64,000 bases of DNA from Oidiodendron maius Zn. Taxonomy: Eukaryota > Ascomycota > Leotiomycetes > Myxotrichaceae. The position numbers were made by a program, and so were the translations under genes. A model generated the notes under the pieces. The model did not search any database. It saw only the letters and a program-made list of their open reading frames with translations, and was not told the DNA's origin. Below are positions 1,003 to 61,300 of the stretch, one piece after another. The first letter of the stretch is position 1. Each line of letters starts with the position of its first letter. Where the stretch lies: positions 496,001-560,000 of the forward strand of contig KN832877.1 in NCBI GenBank assembly GCA_000827325.1, in the 5' to 3' direction.

Positions 1003-1879
1003 ATGTCTCCCTCGACTCTCCCGGCCATGAAGACCAACCCCAAGTTCATTTTCTTCTCTGATTTTGACGGCACCATCACCGAGCGAGACTCCAATGACTT
1101 CCTCACCGATAATCTCGGGTACGGTGAGAAATTGCGCAAGCAGGGCAATCGGGACGTGCTGGATGACAAGATCTCATTCCGAGATTCCTTCCGAGGCATG
1201 ATGGACTCGGTGAAGACGCCCTACGACCAGTGCATCAAGACCCTGTGCGAGAATATCAGTCTGGATCCCTACTTCAAGCAGTTCTACCAATGGGCCAGAG
1301 AGAACAATGTGCCTGTGGTGGTCATCAGCAGCGGGATGGTACCCATTATCCGAGCGCTGCTGGTGCACCTGTTGGGACAGGACGCAGACGATATCCAGAT
1401 TGTCAGCAATGATGTTGCGCCCAGAGATGGGAAGAGCATCAACGATGAAGGTGGCTGGCAGATCGTTTTCCATGACGACAGGTGAGCGCTGTCTCAATTG
1501 CCATGTTATGTTCCTGAACCTGTAGATGCTAATCCCTTTGACAGCCATTTCGGTCACGACAAGTCCATTGAGCTGCGCCAGTACTCCAGTCTTCCTGACA
1601 GTGAAAGACCCACAATGTTCTACGCTGGAGATGGTGTATCTGACCTCTCGGCGGCCAAGGAGACTGATCTACTCTTCGCAAAGAAAGGGCATGGTAAGAG
1701 TATAGCTCACTGTTGAGAGACAATTTTAACGCTGAGTAGATCTTATTACTTATTGTATAAGGGAGAAAGTCCCCTTCACTGTCTTCGAAAACTGGTCGTC
1801 TATCCTGGCAACGGTCAAGGACATTGTGTCTGGTAACACTACTATCGAGAAGGTCTCGGCCGAGAGCGCTAAAGACTAG
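1003..1879 (+). CDS. PYP1: HAD-superfamily phosphatase of the PYP1 (YNL010W) family
   Basis: Three exons: 1003-1481, 1545-1693, 1740-1879; 255 residues, close to the yeast protein. HAD motif I is SDFDGTIT near residue 20. Motif II is the ISSG segment. Motif IV is GDGVSDLSAAK in exon 2, followed by DLLFAK. The C-terminus KVPFTVFENW appears only if the second intron ends at 1739. Yeast Pyp1 is a cytosolic phosphatase that removes phosphate from polyol phosphates such as glycerol- or sorbitol-phosphate; the substrate here is inferred. An upstream in-frame start at 871 is less likely because the added residues look like translated CT-rich leader. A second ATG at 1027 is also possible. Confidence 0.87.
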
Positions 1880-49511: not shown

Positions 49512-50515
49512 TTAAATTTTGCTGGGGACCCATTGGGGCTTCTTCTTGGCTGCAAATGCGTCCAATCCAATCTTCATATTGGGTGCATCCCTTAGTAGCA
49601 GATCAAACCTATCTGACGTCCGCTGAGTCGCTCTTTCAACGCTGCCCGTTTCCCATGCCTCCCGAAGACTTGGTCCCGAGTTAGCACTTTAGTCACGGTG
49701 ACTCAAAATGGGGTATATTTACCCATGTCTAGTAATAATGATGGCGTCTGGTGACAAGCTGGCGATCTTCTGGGCCATTTCAACGCTCTCCGCAATGACA
49801 GATTCTGGAGTCTTTGAGATTTTATTGATTAGATGGAAGTTCAATGCCTATATCATTAGATGATTAGCCGCCTGAACTGAGAAGGATAAATTCTTCCCGA
49901 ATGTCTGTACCTCCTGAGGGGTGAGCCGACGCCCCGTCATTGCGACCTCTGAAGCGATTTGGAGACCACAGTTTCGCACAATCCGGGGCAAGCCGCCAGC
50001 GGCAGCATAGAGCCCCACTGTAGCTTCTGGTAGTCCAAAGGAGGCTTTTGGTGAAGCTACAACCATATCACTGGACCATATCAGCTACTGACATGCGTCT
50101 GGATCTGAGAAGGGAAATACCAATTTAAGCAGATTTCAAACCCGCCGCCAAGCGCAAATCCATTGACAGCAGCGATAATGGGTTTCTTCCCCGTCCGCCT
50201 GCTGATGCCGCAGAAGCCTGACGGCGGATGTCTGGCCGTCGCCGCCGAAGGTGGCTGAACTTTGAACTTTGCCTGCTCGATCAAATCCTGACCAGCACAG
50301 AAGGCCTTGGGTCCGGCACCGGAGATAATTGCGACGCGAAGGCTGGGCTCCTGATCAAACCAGGAAAAGATGGATTCAGCTTCCCAATGGGCATATGATG
50401 GGATGGAGTTCATGGCATCGGGGCGATTAATGGTGACCAGAACGACATATTGAGCTGGGTAGCTCAAGATGAAGGAGGTTGTTGACGGGGGTTGTTTCGA
50501 GAGCTGGTCGGCCAT
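49512..50515 (-). CDS. Enoyl-CoA hydratase/isomerase (crotonase) family protein
   Basis: Four exons: 50515-50121, 50070-49911, 49847-49723, 49668-49512; 278 residues. It begins MADQLSKQPPSTTSF. Crotonase landmarks: INRPDAMNSI, the oxyanion-hole segment GAGPKAFCAGQDL, the motif AAVNGFALGGGFEICLNCDMVVAS split by the first intron, and FGLPEATVGLYAAAGGLPRI. Both Glu positions used by hydratases (GGGFE and LPEA) are kept, favouring hydratase over pure isomerase activity. No presequence is visible and the C-terminus PSKI is a possible but non-standard peroxisomal PTS1. The exact substrate is unknown. Confidence 0.88.
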
Positions 50516-53105
50516 GGTGAGAGTCGTTCCTCGTCAGATTATGGGAAGTCAAGCCTTGATGAATTTTACCAGTATAGAGTATATTTGTACGTCGGTTGTA
50601 TAGCTACAAACAGAAAATGCACTCCCTATGGGCGAGATGAGTTAAAGAAAGGTTTAAGCTGCCCGAACCCCGCATTATCTGGAGTCTTACCGACTCCCTC
50701 GGCCCGTCCATCTTCAACTCTGACAGTAGCGACGTGACGCGACGACATCGCTACTCCATCCTAATTATTTCAACTTTTCTTTATTGTGACTCAAGCGGAC
50801 TCTCCTCAAAGTTGGGGAAGTACTGTAACTGGCTTGATAAGGGAGAATAGTCGCGGCACAGCATGGACCCGATTCTGGCTTCGCCAACCTTTCAGCTACA
50901 CGTATCAAGCTCCCAATCCGCGTATCTATACGAACCTCCTGAGTCCAATCTACCTCCCCCTGCTGTTCATATCTATATGTTATTTTGGGGTGTGCTCAGC
51001 ATATCTCCCTCTCTATCCCTTTCACTCTCTCGTTCCTTAGCTCTGTCTTATTTGCTATCATCCAATTTAAGTGCCTCATTATCGCATTTAGCATCGTGTA
51101 ACTCTGGGAGGTAGTAATCAGCAACGTCTTCATATTAGCGGAAGAGATAGATCGTATCTACTTGGACGTTGAACTCGGACATTGGCTTTTCTCATTGGTC
51201 TGTCCGTTTATACTACAGGGGCTCTCCTGACTGCGCCTTGTTAATTTACTCCGGGCATATACGCTTGAGTCCTGCAAGCAGTACGTAACATTCCAGGGCT
51301 GTAGCTACAGTGCGGGTTCCTCTTACCTTAACGCGATATCATTTATAAGAACATCGCCTTGCGAGACATAGCATCCTAATAACCTCTCTCCGTCTAGATT
51401 GTAATCTCATTTCTTCAGTGTCTCAGAATACTGTACAAAGTCGTTACGAGCTATCTCCAGTCTTCACTATCGTCATAATTGCAATTAAGCTTTTCCTATG
51501 GCTGTAGAGTTAATTGTGTTAGGGTCACTTGCCCTCGTCGTCTTCCTCATTGGTCTCGGCTCACTTATCAACATCGCGACGCAGAAGGGAGGAGAACCAA
51601 AGATACCAATTTGATAGTCTGAGAGGTATGAACGTTCTATCTGCAGTATAATGTCTGGCGCTGGTTTTAGCAGCTGGCTAAACATTCGTGCTAGTAGATC
51701 TCCTTAGCTGCACGACAGCCGGCAATCATGCAAGATGGGTTATAAAACACCTGCAAGATCTCATTAACGATTTTAACAATCCTCCGCGGCAATCTGAGGC
51801 AGTCTATATAATTTGCTTTACTACATCGACATCACAGTGTTCTGGAGCATTATGACAACGCGGTATTCTACCTGTCAGCATTCTTACTTGTGTTCAAGCT
51901 CGACGACGCCGCGGTAACCAGCCTTGACCTGCGCTATCAATTCAAAGTGAATATTCAGTTTCGAACCAACGGCCTTCAAATCAACTTTATTTCGATTTTT
52001 TCGCATGCCAGACTATGGTGGCGCATGAGCTTCCTGGGGCTTCTTTCTTAAAATGCATGGGCTTCCCAAAACGGCTCGCCTATTTAAGACGAAGTGGGAT
52101 GAAAAGTGTAGAATTTCTTCTTGTAGAATAAGAATACCTGGAAATTTTCCTGTTAGATATTTGGTACATTGCTTTCACTGTAGGGAACTGGTGGTTGCGG
52201 CGTATTTGAATGCATTTGCTCCCTACATAGGAAGTCTGTAAGGTATGCGACTGTGTTAGTACTTTCGATATCTCGGCATGCTACATCTAAGCCGAGTATT
52301 ACAATTAAAGAAGGTTATATTCGGACTGGAGATAGCCTACTTATGTTTGGACTGTAATGATACTAAGTCAAAATCTATTTTGCGGTGCCTCACGTTAAGA
52401 GCAGAGCCATCAACTCTATATTTTAATCCCTTGGCTATAAACGGTAATTTTACTACTTTTCTGGAAGCCTGGCATAAAGTTTTTGAATATCACTTAAATT
52501 TATCTTGAAAACAATATAATTCTTTAAACAAAAAATCCTTCGCTTCATGAATAATTTAATATACTGTATTGAGCTCAGGGGCCTAGCGCATACTGCAATG
52601 TCATTACATTTCCCTGTGCAGCAGATAGTTATCTAGCAGACTCCAATCGTCAACTGACAATCTTATGTCGCAAGACAAACTCATCTACTAGTATAATCCC
52701 TTGATAGTATATTTAAATTATCTATGCATCTCAGTAACTAGATTTTATTGTTATGAAGCCGGCGTCAATAAAAAGGGACAATATCTGCTCAGCGACCACG
52801 TGACCGAATATTGGTTGAACTTTGAAATCAGCCATAAACATCCGAAGGCGACCCTAGCTTATGGATCCAAAGGTGCAAATGGAAGAAATAGCAATTTTTT
52901 TGAATCAAAGTAGTAGCGGTGCCCGTAGCCTCTCTGTTATTCTGGCCTCGGCCAAATAGTTGTGACCGTTTGCCTTGTGTCGGCTACTGCCTAGGATTTC
53001 ACAGCCACATATTTAAACTCCACCTACACCCATCTTCAACCCATCAACTTTCCTCCTTATCTCTTCTCATAACACAAGATCTCATCAAGAAAAATAACGT
53101 TCATC
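50516..53105. other. Long AT-rich intergenic region with a 38-residue membrane-helix ORF
   Basis: 2.6 kb, the largest gap in the window, AT-rich especially from 51700 to 52900. Contains an ORF encoding a putative 38-residue membrane peptide (51498-51614), a pyrimidine-rich tract near 51005-51040, and a CACGTG E-box-type site at about 52797, upstream of the rvt gene. Other frames are under 93 codons and unlike proteins. Some parts may be decayed repeats, but I can name none. Confidence 0.45.
51498..51614 (+). CDS. Possible 38-residue single-pass membrane peptide
   Basis: ATG to TGA encodes one strongly hydrophobic helix (VELIVLGSLALVVFLIGLGSLI) followed by a short polar tail (NIATQKGGEPKIPI). 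The composition is unlike random AT-rich translation, but there is no supporting homology that I recall. It could equally be chance. Confidence 0.2.
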   Translation: MAVELIVLGSLALVVFLIGLGSLINIATQKGGEPKIPI

Positions 53106-56100
53106 ATGTCTGCCTCCGGTGGAGTATTCTCCACCACACTCCAGTCGATAACGACAACCAAGCTTCAGGAACTTGCCAAGAAACAGCGCCTGTATGAGGA
53201 CCAGAAAGCTTCCCTCCTGGCTGCTGCCAACCGCGAAATAGTTCAGACGGCAAAGCTCAATGTGCTGTTGGATGGCATAAGTGAGATATTTGCCATCAAG
53301 ACAGGAAAACGAAAGCGGGGAGACGGAGATAACGAATATGAACCCGTCGTCATGCATCGGGATGACCAACTTGAGACCCTGCTGCAAAATCTAGGGCATT
53401 TTCTGAAGCAGGCGACCTATGACCCTTCTATATCCCCCAAGCTCCTAGATGACTGGGAAAAATCTCTCGCCAGGCAATTAGACGTTCAGTCTCAGAAATA
53501 TCGTTATGCTACTCTTTATGGGCAACTAGTCATGGAGTGGCTCTCTTCAGAAGCTCAAACACCCACTGGAATTGGACTGGAGAATCTTGGGGACATCCAT
53601 CAACAGGAAAATCTAGCAAGAGACGAAGGTCGAGCTAATTGGGAGAAGCTTATCTTTGAACCTTTAGAGACAGACAAGGCCGCAATTTTCGACTACCTGC
53701 AGAATCTTTTCGGAGGCGGCAGCACTAACAAACAAGCAACTAAAGCACTGCAGGCCCTCCGCAAGCGTATTGATGAGTTTGACCCCGGCCAATTTGATGA
53801 AAGTGTTTTGAGGTGGACTATCCAGGGCCTTCTCGCTTCTGACCTTCCTTCTGCCGAGAAACGTGCAGTGCTAAAGGACTTTTTGACCAATTCTGTCATC
53901 CTAACTGAAATATCTGATGTCCTGAATTTGCGGTTGGCATCAATCAAAACCTGGACTTGGGATACTGATGGCCTGTTAGTTGAGATGAGGAGAAATGTAA
54001 ATGGAAAGTATCATATGTACATCGAAGAAGATCTCCTCCAGGCCATCTTCCTTCAATTTATTGGAGTAAAATTTTCGGTGTTTTTCAAAAAAGCCTTCAC
54101 AGAGTTCTCAAATTTTGAGGGAGCATGGGCATCATTGCGAAAGATTCCGCCTTTGGCCAAGAAAAGAAGAGAGTACTTTCTCGGACTACAAGCCTTGAAG
54201 CCCAGCGTGCAAAGCAAGCGACAAGGGATTTACAAATCCATTTACTTCATGTCACAGTTGCAGGACTCGGAATTTAGAGATAGTAATTCTCTTGATGGAG
54301 AAGTTGAAGTGGATTATATTCAGAACTCAGCGTTTGGGGGACAACCCATGCAAGCACAACAGCAAGCACAACAGCAAGCACAACAGCAAGCACAACAGCA
54401 AGCACAACAGCGAGCACAACAGCAAAGGCCACAAATGCCAATGCAAATGCAACAGGCGGCGCCGGCACCAATGGCGAGTTTTTTCAGGCAGGAGTCTGTT
54501 ATGAAGAAGAAATCGAGAGCGGCCCCATCACCTGATACCTGCCCCGAATATGACCTTCTTCCAGACCACGAGAAGCCCGGTTCGCCAATGGCCACCAAAC
54601 AAGCTCTGCTGCACCTTTTATCTGCAGAACTACTACTCAACACTCGATTTCACGGAGAATTTACATGTGCTCGGTCTGAATTTGAGTCATGGAACACTTC
54701 TCTACCTCATTCAACTGTATTCTCTGTCCTCTCCTTCTTTGGTGTGTCGGCCAAATGGCGTGGACTTTTTCGCAATTTTCTGGAATGTCCCCTCAAGTTC
54801 TTGGATGACGATCATACAACACAGCCAAGAACCAGGAAGAGGGGTGCACTTGGCGCCCATGTTCTCTCTACAGTGATCGGGGAAGTCATCCTCTTTTGTT
54901 TGGACTATGCTGTGAACCAGAGCACTGATGGAGCTCAGCTCTATCGTATGCACGATGATTTCTGGATCTGGTCTTCATCCCACGACACAGTTGTTAAGGC
55001 TTGGAAAGCTATAACCAAGTTTTCTGACGTGATGGGAGTCACATTGAACAAAGGGAAAAGCGGTACAGTACGGATTGTCAGGGGCAAAACGGAGCCTTCA
55101 GATATCGATCCTTCGCTTCCAAATGGTGATATTAGATGGGGGTTTCTCCGCCTCCATCCAACCTCCGGCCGTTTTGTAATTGATCGAGAAATGGTAGATA
55201 GCCATATCGATAGCCTTGAACGCCAACTTCAAGATAGAAAAAGTATCTTTGATTGGATTCAAACATGGAATGCATTTGCTGGGAGATTTTTCACAAGTAA
55301 GCGATTCTGCCCCCCACAATACTGTTCATATAGCTTCCTATTTCAAATGTCAAACTTGCCCGCTTCGTTTCGCTAGGTTTAGAGTTCGAAAAGCTGATTG
55401 CCTGTCTCTAGGTAACTTTGGAAAACCAGCTAATTGCTTCGGAAGAGAGCATATTGATTCAATGCTGAAAGCGTTAGAGAGTATACAACGTCGTGTATTC
55501 TCAGACACAAGTGTTGTGCAATACCTTAAAAATACTATTGAGGAACGATTCGGCGTCCAGGATATTCCGGATGGATACTTCTACTTTCCCACGGATGTGG
55601 GCGGCCTTGAGCTCAACAATCCCTTCATCGGTCTGGTACAGCTACGAGATGCAGTATATGAAGACCCCAATGATGCACTCTCTGTTGTTACGTCCAATGA
55701 GATGGATGCCTATCGCGAGGCTAAGAAGGCTTTTGAGAGCGGGACAATCGATCGTCGGTGGAATGGGGCCCCCGACTTTGTTCCTAAAGATCACGACAAA
55801 TTCATGTCATTTGAAGAATTCACACAATATCGAGAGGAATTCAGCTCGTCGCATAGACGTAACCTATGCTTTGTATTTGAGGAACTTCTTTCCCAGCCAG
55901 CAAAGCAAAACGTGAGGCTCAATGAGAATGATGATGAAGAAATGGTCCTACATGGAACGGAAGACGATTACTGGTTGTGGGTAACGATATTATACAGGGA
56001 CGAGATGGTTGAGAAATTCGGTAGTCTGAATATTGTAAACCGAGCTCTTCTACCCACTTCGATGATTTCTCTATACCGATCGGGACGTGTGAAATGGCAA

Positions 56101-56106
56101 GGGTGA
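53106..56106 (+). CDS. rvt: Reverse-transcriptase-related cellular gene (rvt family)
   Basis: Two exons: 53106-55296 and 55412-56106; 961 residues. The N-terminal ~60 residues are coiled coil (LQELAKKQRLYEDQKASLLAA). A long helical region follows with IEEDLLQAIFLQFIGVKFSVFFK. A Gln/Ala repeat lies at residues ~416-439. The RT-like core is at ~490-700: a motif A-like segment SEFESWNTSLPH (524-535), motif B-like KRGALGAHVLS (~578-588) and motif C YRMHDDFW with D617 and D618. The C-terminal part contains NFGKPANCFGREHID and FPTDVGGLELNNPF. Single-copy rvt genes in fungi share this length, N-terminal coiled coil and large insertion between RT motifs; the Neurospora protein polymerises nucleotides. 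It is not a retrotransposon: no integrase, RNase H or terminal repeats are seen. TERT was considered but its TEN and TRBD motifs are missing. Confidence 0.72.
54351..54422 (+). repeat. 12-bp minisatellite inside rvt encoding Gln/Ala units
   Basis: Six head-to-tail units of CAAGCACAACAG (the sixth with CGA for CAA) encode QAQQ repeats in the rvt protein, in the region where the family carries a variable insertion. The repeat keeps frame because the unit is a multiple of three. Confidence 0.9.
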
Positions 56107-56707
56107 GCGTATGTAGCTTTATCGAGAGGTGATGTACTGGAGGAGCAATTTGGGAAAGAAACAAGGCTCTTGGTACTTTGAGATAAAAGGCCAAGGTTTC
56201 ATTATTCTTGTTCTCTATGGCTGCGAAGTATTTAGCTTGCTTATCAGTTCGGATTAAATGGCGTGTGTATAATAATGTACCTCTTTTTCAACTTCATATT
56301 CTGTAGCAATACAATGCGAAGCACATCCTTTTACTTCCCGGCCGCAATTTGAGACCTTTCGATATCCTTTGTAAGTGTGGAAGAGCAAAATGGCAGGAAG
56401 TATAGCTAGTTACGCGGACTTTATGGGACAGTAGCTCATTCTTAAGGGGAGTTTCAAGCTGGGAGTTCAGAACAAACACTGCTCCCTATGGCTGCAAGAG
56501 ACTCTCCTCTTGAGTGTAAGCCAGGCTCCTAGGCTGCCAACTTGCGAATCACTACTTAGCAGGTTGTGAAATTGAGGTATAATAGGGAGATTGCAAAGAT
56601 ACGGGAGATGGAGAGATAGTCAAGATGAGTGTCTTAGTATATAAATGCCAAACAAGTGTCTACACCTTGTGCCTGTGTACTTCGGACCAAATATGCCAAA
56701 TACCTTC
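56107..56707. other. Convergent intergenic region
   Basis: 600 bp between the rvt stop and the 3' end of a small minus-strand gene. No other gene seen. Confidence 0.45.
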
Positions 56708-57016
56708 TCAGTCCCTCGACTTTTCCCCGTTGTTGACGGCTGGCATCAAATTGTTCAAGGTAGCCAGCGCTGGCTCCTGGTGCTTGCGTACGCTCTGCTC
56801 GGAGTTGGCGGTGCAATAGGGGATGCCGGCGAGGATATTGTCGGGAATGTACTTATCGGCACAGCACTTCGATGGATGACTTGGTTCTCGGAGGGACATG
56901 GAGGGTTCGGAACCCGAGCTAGTGCTATTGGCGATATTAGTCGAGCCAATAAAAGTAATTTACAGAGATACTAACCAATTAGAGCCGTGCTCAGTTCGCG
57001 TCGAATGGGCGTCCAT
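56708..57016 (-). CDS. Small two-exon hypothetical protein
   Basis: Two exons: 57016-56976 and 56924-56708; 85 residues. The call rests on a textbook intron: donor GTTAGT, branch GACTAAT and acceptor CCAATAG, 51 nt, which joins two open frames in phase. The product is polar with Cys pairs (KCCADKYIP, IPYCTANSEQS) and no signal peptide or membrane segment. No family recognised. Because both parts are short it could be missed by automated annotation. Confidence 0.45.
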
Positions 57017-57847
57017 CGTAGACGGCGGTGGACTGAAGATGTGCGGGACGCAATAGGAGAATGCTCGACCTCACTTGGTTATAGAGAAATGAGTGATCTA
57101 AAGACGAGTTTCTCCAACAGCATCTTATATAGATTTGGTCTGACTCGAGAGCCGCCATGAAATTCCCAGAGCATACATCCCCATGTCAGCACCTAGAGGT
57201 TGAAGTTGGATCTAGAATGCCCATTCTGGGAGAAACTGGAAGGCAGTCGCAGCAAGCGGGACCCAGAATATCCAAAACTGGCAAAATTGGGAGAGAAAGC
57301 TGCGTGTTTTGCCATCCTGCATCTCAGACCAAAATCGCCTGCCGCCTCCACGCCTGAACGCCCGGTCTGCAAGGCGGCCACATGGATAAGCGCTTAGCCG
57401 GAAGGGGAAAAACTGGAAGGACCGTCGTATGGCAAGGCTGAGAACCAAAGGCAGCCTCTCATTGCTGTGAAGCCGCAGGAAGGTGGATGGCTGAAGCAGT
57501 TACCCAGTGGTTGATGGTCCGTGCGATATGTCACAGAGCACATACTGAGGACTTTTCCCACCGCAAAGCCACCGACCGCATCACCTTTCCAACACATGGT
57601 AAACCGATGTGACAAGCCGGTTTATCATGCTCTCGCTCCTCTAATAGTTCCCTTGATACTTATATCAGTGCAGGAAAGCTATTTTTGCCATGTGTTTGCC
57701 TTATTTTGTCTACGGCGATGATGTAATGGATACCGCCCAGTGAGAATCACATTGTATGTACTTGTTTTCTCTACTCACTATATCTACTTCATCCAGCGCT
57801 CCTTTCACAGGATACCTTGGTCGCTTCTTCTACTGACTAATATACAG
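57017..57847. other. Intergenic region
   Basis: About 830 bp upstream of the small minus-strand gene. Short frames only. The sequence TACTGACTAATATACAG at 57831-57847 looks like the 3' end of an intron of the next gene. Confidence 0.4.
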
Positions 57848-59008
57848 TCTGCAAACAAAGACTCTCTTGGCAACCCAGCGGCCCTGGTCACGTTTCCATC
57901 TACTACCTTTACAAGAAGACAGGGCGTTAGACGCCGAATTCCCGTCCGTACTCTCTCTTAGCCAGCTCAAGGCAGAGGGAACAAATCTAACCTTGGAATA
58001 TAGCCATTCTATTTCTCTCTCTACGGCAAAACACCGAGCTTACTGGAACGCAACCTTCGAAATGCCTATGCAAATTGATCGTGGCCGCGTAGGTATGTTC
58101 AGCCACATTTCTTCGACATAGAATGCGGACCAACCTACTTGGAGAACTTTCGAATTCGTCTCTATAGCACTACCGTAAAGATTACAACGAATCCCATAAC
58201 TAGTAGATCCACAGCCGCGCTTGAAACCACGCTTCTCGGGCCCAGAGTTGATACTCAGTTTCATCTGGACAGCCATCTCTGGTAACATCCTGTTGCCTTA
58301 AATGTCCCTTCCAGTCATCAACCCATACATCCGTCACAATTTGACCTGATGACTGAACAGAGAACTATTGATATTGGACACATTGGTATTGTACCAGAGC
58401 GGGACTTGATCCGGATCTCTCCATCCATGGTGTTAGGTCTTCTGAACATTTCTGAAACTTATTCACCTTCGACAAGCCAGTCTGCCATCTTGGACTTAAA
58501 TATGCAGTCTCATTTACTGCAGTGCAATGTCTCTAGCAGCCGAAGTTCTGCAACGGGTCTGAAGAACGCCGGTGAATCAAGCAATATGCAATATGTGACT
58601 TTAATAAATTTTGAAGTTCAAGTCATGCACTAATCCACACTCATGTAGGCTATTCAAATAGGTGATTCTAGCATGGCACCCGAGACAGTCATGCAAGAAT
58701 ATCAAGATACTCCTGTATGCAAGCCACTCCCAGATGAGGCAATATCTCACATGAATAGTTAGTTAACTTCACTCCTGATTTTCATGATCTTTGTATGCAT
58801 GAGGCTAACAGTTTGATTTATAGACACTCTAGTGACAAGGCAAGATGTACATGTTACAGATGTTGGTCTTTCTATAGAGAATTCAGCGTCACCAAAACGG
58901 GCCGGCGTCAATGCAGTCAAAACTAAGGAGACACAAAAAAGACGACGCATTACGGGCGATGGTTCTATGCCTCCCCCCTTATGTGCTCCCATCGCTCCAT
59001 TGTTATAG
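57848..59008 (+). CDS. Unrecognised multi-exon gene, 5' structure unresolved
   Basis: The 3' exons are clear: a block ending at 58594 (from at least 58349), 58649-58757 and 58824-59008, joined by introns of 54 and 66 nt with CTAAT/CTAAC branch sites and in-phase joins. They encode IGIVPERDLIRISPSMVLGL, then GDSSMAPETVMQEYQDTP, then DVHVTDVGLSIENSASPKRAG and a basic KRRRITGDG near the C-terminus. Upstream open blocks at 57848-58092 (ATQRPWSRFHLLPLQEDRAL, HRAYWNATFEMPMQID) and about 58122-58282 (CGPTYLENFRIRLYS, LLGPRVDTQFHLDSHL) read like protein, but joining them needs introns of only 29 and 33 nt, so frameshifts or a different structure are possible. No start codon is assigned. The family is unknown. 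Confidence 0.45.
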
Positions 59009-59659
59009 AACACCCTGTAACAAGACTGATTCCTTGACGAGATAGAAGTATGGCTGGTCCGTCTAATATTAAACAATTACTTAGCCACAACTGTCACCTA
59101 CCCAAGTCTCTCATGTTTTCCGTAGAGATGGAAATAACTCAAGACTCCAGAATGGGCTATTTTGTTGAATTATACAAACGTGGAGAAAGGGTTTAAAAGT
59201 TGCAATCCAACAGACTAACACGGCAGTGATTTTCACAGTGAGATGTAAAAGCTTCAAGTAAATGACGGCTTGTATTTAAAATAAGAAAGCAGCTACGAAT
59301 CCATTGCCAGGAAAAATAATAAATGGCCTACGCTATATGCGACAAAAAGCCTCAACCTCCCCTGGAAGCATTAGACCCCCGCGCTTAATCTCAAAGCTTT
59401 TGTACACCTCCAGACATTTGAGGATACGTGATCCAAGATCGTTTCCGCGGTGAGGAAGAAATCGCCACCTAGATAAAGCTCCATTAGGCTGCCATTTCAG
59501 TCCCTGACAAAATCTAAGCGAAGGGCCCGCTTCCCCAATTCCGACATCATCTACGCGTGCAGATTTAGATGTCGCACCATCTAGAGATCGTAAAATCCTT
59601 TGATCATTTCTTGCGACGATATTGTGCTGCTGCAAATCTCAAGTCTGAACCTCTTGTAA
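59009..59659. other. Intergenic region, promoter of the Zn2Cys6 gene
   Basis: About 650 bp, AT-rich to 59340. Nothing recognised. Confidence 0.4.
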
Positions 59660-61300
59660 ATGGGAAGAGTGTTGGCGAGTCATCTCGAGCAGCTAATGCT
59701 ATTGCCGAAACCAAAAAGAACCAGGCGGGGAGGCCGCAAGTCGCGCAATGGCTGCGTGACATGCAAGTATGCCATCTTATATACCAACCGATTCGTGCGA
59801 ATTCTAACTGCCCTTTATAATACGGCATATAAAATGCGACGAGGTCCGTCCCTCGTGCGGCGGATGCGTGAACACTGGGCGAATATGCGACGGCTACCCA
59901 GGAGATACGAAGACTGGACGTAAAGAGCTTACTTTTGTGCCGCCAAATACAATTTCCAAGTCTCTTTCATATACTCGAAGCTCACTGAGCCAGAAGGAAG
60001 CTCAGCATGTAAATCATTTTCGACATGTTTTCGCCCACGGCATGTCTGGTTTTGCATCATCACCGCTATGGGAAAAGTTGATTTTGCAGGCGGTACATGA
60101 AGAGCCTGCAGTATGCCATGCCGCAATAGCTGTCAGCGCGCTGCAACCTTCGGGTTCAATACTTTCACCAAATACAGATACGAATTATAGAGTCTTTGCC
60201 TTGCGCCAGTATTCAGCAAGCATCAAAGAGCTCCAGAGCCTGTTGGCCCACCGTACACCGCACTCAATTGAAGTGGCGTTAATGTGCTCAATTATCTGCA
60301 TGTGCTTTGAAATACTAGAGGGTAGCCATGAACTGGCGCAAGGACATCTGGAGAATAGCCTACGTGTAATCTCAGCCAACGAAGGTACGAAGGAACCCTG
60401 TCGTATACCATATTGTAATACTGACCTATCTACACAGCGATTCTAGATAAGGAGCTTGTTCGTGCATTTGCCCGCTTTGATGTTCAAGCCTGGACCTATA
60501 TTGGGAAAAGACCCGTAACATTTGCCCTGAACATTGGGTCTAACCACCCGGCAATATTCTCGGACTTGAAGGAAGCTGAAGATGCCCTTTTCCACGATCT
60601 TCATGACGTATGGATGTTTTTTTATAAGTCAGCCTGTCCTTGCCGGTATCTTGATCCAGAATCAATGCCTGAGTTGGTGCTTTCCGAATTCGAAAGCCTT
60701 AAAGAGCGACTGAGCCGGTGGAAGAGGGCATTCCTCTCATTTGAAGAGGCGAATCGCGCGAGCTTTTCCAAACGGGATTCTGAACATGCAAGTCTCCTAC
60801 ATATTCACCACTCTACAGGGACTGTCTCATTAGTCGGAGAATTGAGCCCCAATGAGATGGTATACGATACGTTTGATGATACATTCCTATCTACTCTTCG
60901 TCTCTCAAGCCAGTTGCTTCGAGAAAGGCTTAATTCTCCTTGGTCAGATACATTTTCAATGGAACTGGGGATTGTACAGCCCTTGTATATCACCGCTGTC
61001 AAGTGTCGAGTTCATCATATCCGAGCAGAAGCAATTAAACTCCTTAGTTCTGTTCCACAACCAGAAGGAATTTGGAACGGCGGAGTAATGGCAAAAATCG
61101 CGGAGCAAGTTCGGATAATCGAGGAAGGTGATTTGGATTTTGAATTATTAGGCTTCGAAAGGCTTCCGGAATTTCGCCGGATACATTCTGTCGGTGCAGA
61201 TATAGACCAGAAGGGCCGAACCGCAAGCTACTTTTGTGATATGCGGCGAAGTGATGGCAGTGGCAAATTTGAAAATATTAGTGGTACAGTTACTTGGTAG
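59660..61300 (+). CDS. Zn2Cys6 transcription factor with fungal-specific domain; first intron lacks AG
   Basis: Model exons: 59660-59766, 59819-60384, 60438-61300; 511 residues. The zinc cluster reads NGCVTCK|IRHIKCDEVRPSCGGC and VNTGRICDGYPGD; the bar marks intron 1. Joining there gives exact Zn2Cys6 spacing (Cys-2-Cys-6-Cys). Intron 1 has a good donor (GTATGC) and branch (TTCTAACTG) but ends in AT at 59818 instead of AG. The rest matches the PF11951-type regulator domain (HFRHVFAHGMSGFASSPLWEKLILQAVHEEPAVCHAAIA; CMCFEILEGSHELAQGHLENSL). The gene is convergent with a secreted serine hydrolase. If the acceptor is truly lost, the gene may be a recent pseudogene. Confidence 0.75.

Follow-up and report, generated by a model that had tools for sequence, protein, structure and literature searches.

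The predicted RVT protein of Oidiodendron maius has glutamate at the motif A aspartate site, and many of its fungal relatives carry a histone H3-tail copy

What does a fungus do with a reverse transcriptase (RT)-like protein that belongs to no mobile element? The question is raised by positions 53106-56106 (+) of a 64,000-nucleotide stretch of the Oidiodendron maius Zn genome (contig KN832877.1, positions 496,001 to 560,000; hereafter the window), which hold an intact rvt gene of 961 residues in two exons. The family itself was already proposed in an earlier, sequence-only reading of the window; what we add is a change in motif A of the predicted protein and copies of the histone H3 tail in its relatives.

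Sequence comparison places the window gene firmly in the cellular rvt family, as a homologue of bacterial RVT (PADLOC class UG37, a class of candidate antiviral RTs). A protein search returned 507 homologues scoring far beyond chance. Among the best 120 of these 507, most align over their whole length, those covering at least 98% of the query share 42-58% identity, and the named homologues are from Hyphodiscus, Lachnellula, Cadophora, Botrytis, Fusarium and Aspergillus, the nearest of them presumably leotiomycetes. Its best matches are fungal proteins that share the length and build of the window protein. Profile A1 (30 rows, made from 29 of the 120 listed homologues and the window exon 1 product) recovered a protein in all four Herpetosiphon genomes (E 2.2e-29 for the best genome, 3.7e-5 for the weakest), presumably the published HaRVT of that genus (our locus L024). 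With the Herpetosiphon protein as query, 14 proteins were found, 13 of bacterial type (32-96% identity) and one fungal rvt (P0082, E 1.8e-30). Two of the 13 are named as Herpetosiphon or its family, P0228 and P0229 are close to Herpetosiphon, and nine are metagenome proteins. The PADLOC model RT_UG37, for which the library gives no curated cut-off, matches the window exon 1 product at E 1.5e-47 over residues 94-723, and P0230 of Herpetosiphon with 1200 bits along its length. The identification as a fungal rvt is thus borne out by fungal relatives that match it in size and build, as well as, through profile A1 and RT_UG37, by homology to bacterial RVT.

The founding paper on rvt genes is reportedly that of Gladyshev and Arkhipova (2011). 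In published passages RVT genes are placed in bacteria and eukaryotes, with loop 2a between motifs 2 and 3 (PMC5718144), and, like the rvt gene of Neurospora crassa as these sources portray it, the window gene is fungal, single-copy and immobile, with an RT fold and a loop 2a (PMC5718144, PMC10680173, PMC3520738). The homologous RVT of Herpetosiphon is shorter than the window protein (769-846 amino acids among the 13 bacterial-type rows) and has a motif C of DD and the motif A Asp, at whose site the window protein has Glu525. Relatives were found neither in viral contigs nor, by tblastn with P0065, on plasmids, a first scan of genome contigs returned nothing, and the name Neurospora was absent from the matches listed in two homologue searches (best 120 each). 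The term UG37 was not found in the openly licensed literature searched. Elsewhere, RVT proteins are mentioned in passing in a passage of PMC8381367, antiviral RT papers cite bacterial RVT (PMC12483538, PMC12632851), the names RVT1/RVT2 are used for transposon genes in PMC4920403, and 'RVT' denotes the RVT_1 domain where it appears in PMC8934634. Two rvt gene models, P0203 and P0211, are fused to GST N-terminal and alpha/beta hydrolase domains, and may be annotation joins of adjacent genes.

An RT fold would by itself speak for a telomerase or a retrotransposon RT, a reading to which we give almost no credence. The exon 1 product (730 residues) matches only itself in the O. maius genome (45.9 Mb, 58 contigs), and the flanks (50534-53105, 2.6 kb upstream; 56107-59700, 3.6 kb downstream) likewise gave only self-matches in a search that ignores simple repeats and very common words. 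Pfam lists for the window protein an RVT_1 match below threshold (E 0.047; 13.8 bits, cut-off 29.6), and neither an endonuclease, RNase H, integrase or other mobile-element domain nor Telomerase_RBD among matches up to E 10. Telomerase reverse transcriptase (TERT) is a separate gene on contig C4 of the same genome (G000:C4:1600705-1602175; Telomerase_RBD E 7.2e-27 and 8.8e-16). The rvt gene is absent from the 105 RVT_1 matches listed for this genome at E ≤0.01, 99 of which contain stops; one of the six stop-free matches is the TERT. The stops are mostly TAG and TAA, which would fit repeat-induced point mutation. These results rule out a telomerase or retrotransposon RT, unless copies sit in unassembled sequence. 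They also agree with the earlier description of a gene that stands alone in single copy and without mobile-element parts, since no multiple copies with element-like ends were found in the genome, the flanks are unique and TERT is distinct.

The catalytic Asp of motif A appears, from the alignments, to be gone in the window protein and in nearly all sampled fungal relatives, and kept in the bacterial ones. Motif A of bacterial RVT, of the type KTDFRDYYPSL, aligns without gaps to RSEFESWNTSL of the window protein, so that the site of the catalytic Asp corresponds to Glu525 (codon 54678-54680). Provided that they are gapless, the Pfam RVT_1 ranges are consistent with this register (fungal residue 533 at profile position 82; residue 387 of P0230, whose motif A Asp is residue 398, at profile position 63). 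Glu525 sits in a predicted strand of residues 518-526 (54657-54683, +), and the motif A Asp is usually found near the end of this strand. Residues 527 and 518 were considered as the motif A ligand and rejected as unlikely, the bacterial alignment being gapless from residue 516; residue 518 is moreover seven residues off, at the start of the strand. All 13 bacterial-type rows have the Asp. Of 400 genomes searched in the phylum of genome G001, 20 had a match at E ≤1e-10, and the 12 full-length loci, which overlap in species with the 13 rows, all have the motif A Asp and the motif C DD. Across 205 fungal-type rows (at least 900 residues, window protein included, 23 shorter rows of the total of 228 being left out), site 525 holds 13 residue types: Val (111), Glu (50), Thr (9), Met (8), Gln (6), Ser (6), Ile (4), Ala (3), Asp (2), Gly (2), Lys (2), Cys (1) and Arg (1). 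The two Asp rows, P0065 and P0073, belong to a five-member clade in which the remaining rows have Glu, Gly and Gln, and a row from Apodospora, which we take to belong to the same order as Neurospora, has Ser (P0220). The change is unreported in the openly licensed papers searched on rvt catalytic residues; the 2011 and 2018 rvt papers could already report it.

Motif B (KRGALGAH, residues 578-585, 54837-54860, +) is followed by motif C (HDD, residues 616-618, 54951-54959, +), which is intact in the window protein, although the set of catalytic Asp residues is incomplete since motif A has Glu525. Among the 205 fungal-type rows, motif C is DD in 155, DN in 34 and something else in 16; over all 228 rows Asp617 is present in 219 and Asp618 in 183, and many other positions are nearly invariant across the fungal relatives. 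A Fusarium-containing branch of 32 rows (e.g. P0116, P0148, P0145) combines DN in motif C with Val in motif A in 31 of them, leaving one of the three usual metal ligands; DD is retained in other Fusarium rows (e.g. P0126, P0137).

Over residues 501-690 the structure model has high confidence (means of 84-97 per 10 residues), and it gives the window protein a predicted RT right-hand fold, in which motif A is present as a strand without its Asp. Comparison with known structures returned RT-fold matches: R2, LINE-1, group II, DRT9 and spliceosomal chains, the last taken to be Prp8. Prp8 differs in being spliceosomal and in having no sequence match among those listed, and viral polymerases match the model about as well. 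DRT9 is the best PDB match by sequence (E 0.001 with the single sequence, 4.3e-8 with the profile) and the top Foldseek match (E 3.1e-7), but the template-modelling (TM) score is only 0.20/0.28, and a passage of PMC12483538 describes DRT9 as an oligomeric bacterial defence system with a templating RNA that makes poly-dA. Two further features flank or interrupt this core. A long helix is predicted at the N-terminus (residues 5-43, 53118-53234, +), is conserved in homologues and corresponds to the coiled coil proposed in the sequence-only reading. Loop 2a (residues 394-493, 54285-54584, +) is placed between two predicted helices, 368-380 and 494-516, of which the second directly precedes motif A; it is mostly of low confidence (394-427 and 437-481) and predicted to be unstructured. 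It contains a 12-base tandem array (54350-54425, +) that encodes in-frame AQQQ repeats.

In many relatives, loop 2a houses a histone H3-tail copy. In a PDB profile search with A1, 59 of the 60 matches listed were H3 tails at loop 2a, at E of at least 0.1, and the other was DRT9; direct comparison reveals near-complete copies, as in P0010 (37 residues, 423-459). Taking a local score of at least 50 as presence, the copy occurs in 112 of 228 rows and in 98 of the 205 full-length rows, while the highest null scores were 43 in 605 whole-protein shuffles and 45 in 1,980 loop shuffles (121 sequences, first search). It lies inside loop 2a in 96 of the 98 rows. Acidic residues make up a median fraction of 0.30 in the 20 positions preceding the copy and 0.45 in the 20 following it, against 0.14 in whole proteins, and in the model of P0010 the copy falls within a stretch (412-468) whose predicted local distance difference test (pLDDT) score is below 50. 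The copy was found in each of the four main branches of the fungal tree, but whole sub-branches are without it (17 rows that include Botrytis and Sclerotinia, 17 that include Hypoxylon). Its presence changes at least 40 times on this tree (built with FastTree without the loop and site 525; many forks are weak), compared with at least 58 times in all 200 label shuffles. The window protein is among the 107 full-length rows without it, the best H3 score of its loop being 25, within the null range. Since its nearest listed relatives (P0001, P0006, P0007, P0009; 95-71% identity) likewise lack the copy and the next ones (P0002, P0003, P0004, P0005, P0008, P0010; 53-58% identity) have it, a loss in the window lineage is suggested.

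The copy does not change evenly. From 227 fungal-type proteins, 98 scoring at least 70 were reduced to 29 representatives at 70% identity; over H3 residues 2-31 these leave 100 of 156 lysine, 100 of 104 arginine and 461 of 519 other cells unchanged, identities that the selection by score inflates. The Fisher value for lysine versus arginine is 1.4e-10, no strict probability because the rows are related. By this count lysines are, as a class, the most often changed residues; Lys14 is exceptional (kept in 21 of 26), and L20 (kept in 20 of 29) and S31 (17 of 23) are also variable. Of 56 lysine changes, 19 are to arginine and 15 to methionine. An oncohistone-like K-to-M inhibition is disfavoured, as methionine occurs at K18 in 8 of 29 representatives, at K9 in 1 of 25 and at K27 in 0 of 25. 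To judge from these sequences, the copy retains the shape of the tail and tends to lose the residues that are modified in H3, and because of this pattern we interpret it as a putative means of docking without modification.

Four rvt proteins (P0005, P0013, P0045, P0074) are labelled Histone or Histone H3 in the database, likely because all four hold the copy. Elsewhere in the O. maius genome, a 368-residue frame (L012, 1480-2586, +; G000:C23 around 351024) opens with a 22-residue H3-like tail from its first Met, followed by an F-box match just under the cut-off. At a second locus (L014, G000:C14 around 288141), a frame at 1495-1713 (-) contains a 22-residue H3-tail stretch, and a 2EXR-family frame lies just downstream on the same strand (538-1473, -; E 4.5e-19). 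The H3 tail may be a module of several gene families in this fungus. An H3 mimic sequence is described in Swi6 in a passage of PMC7192584; the copy in rvt proteins is unreported in the openly licensed papers searched, and the 2011 and 2018 rvt papers could already have it.

What, then, does the window protein do? On balance we lean towards a single-copy cellular rvt protein that is RT-shaped, has lost or much altered its catalysis and acts through its surfaces, with loop 2a as a variable docking arm. Two-metal polymerisation depends on a metal ligand that motif A ordinarily contributes, and loss of the motif A Asp normally abolishes it; ordinary polymerase activity has therefore most likely gone, and catalysis in the window protein is probably lost or much altered. 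The palm would still bind nucleotide or RNA without ordinary polymerisation, and the protein would work through its surfaces, as Prp8 does. The docking arm would present an H3-tail copy in many relatives and the Gln-rich array in the window protein, and the N-terminal helix would make the protein an oligomer, in the way expected of the N-terminal coiled coil of rvt proteins. Published passages link rvt to stress (PMC10680173, PMC3520738), and by analogy with Neurospora reports the window gene may be induced on translation inhibition. Two statements in the same sources weigh against a loss of catalysis: N. crassa RVT is reported to be active (PMC3520738), and stress relief is said to need intact catalytic residues (PMC10680173). 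An appreciable, if lower, probability thus goes to an active non-templated polymerase, terminal-transferase-like and perhaps protein-primed, with Glu525 or another acidic residue as metal ligand. The intact motif C of the window protein is in keeping with it, and the 2018 paper on bacterial RVT, which reportedly has protein priming in its title, can be counted on the same side. That paper is cited, with nothing further, in a passage of PMC8885841. Activity reported for other RVTs (PMC10680173, PMC3520738) and the weak sequence match to DRT9, a protein-primed maker of poly-dA (PMC12483538), add to this; but a site with 13 residue types in fungal-type rows looks unconstrained and unlike a working metal ligand, and in motif C itself 50 of 205 rows have something other than DD.

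A fuller version of the docking proposal is more tentative, and we regard it as possible but on the unlikely side: that the rvt of filamentous ascomycetes is a pseudo-reverse-transcriptase which lost the motif A Asp and kept its scaffold and most of motif C, that a lysine-depleted H3-tail copy between acidic stretches in loop 2a docks the protein to factors that normally bind H3, and that the window lineage has since swapped this copy for a Gln-rich array. The copies could instead be neutral leftovers of one old insertion, without function, as their absence from 107 of 205 rows (the window protein and the Botrytis/Sclerotinia and Hypoxylon sub-branches included) and their repeated changes on the tree would allow. 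We consider this unlikely, given the nearly complete retention of arginines and of most other non-lysine residues (even with identity inflated by the score selection), the constant position inside the loop between acidic stretches, and a number of presence changes lower than in any of the shuffles.

The gene model is straightforward. Exon 1 (53106-55296, +) encodes the first 730 residues and supplies the first base of codon 731, a GT-AG intron of 115 bases follows (55297-55411, +), and exon 2 (55412-56106, +) includes the stop codon; splicing yields a frame free of internal stops, and the residues that flank the junction (F728, F729, N732, F733, G734) are conserved in homologues. Coordinates, strand, length and single intron all agree with the sequence-only reading, as do the positions of KRGALGAH and HDD. 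Its large insertion before the core exists as loop 2a, but lies inside the RT core rather than ahead of it. The 2.6 kb gap it noted upstream stands up to the checks made, in which the next Pfam-matching frame was an enoyl-CoA hydratase/isomerase-like frame at 50081-50533 (-) (ECH_1, E 9.5e-19).

For the role of rvt, the working idea in print, as worded in a passage of PMC10680173, is non-templated polymerisation. If most ascomycete rvts are without the motif A Asp, this idea fails for them, or their active site is unorthodox. A near-complete H3 tail in about half of the sampled family would connect these enigmatic RT-like proteins with chromatin or with the handling of histones.
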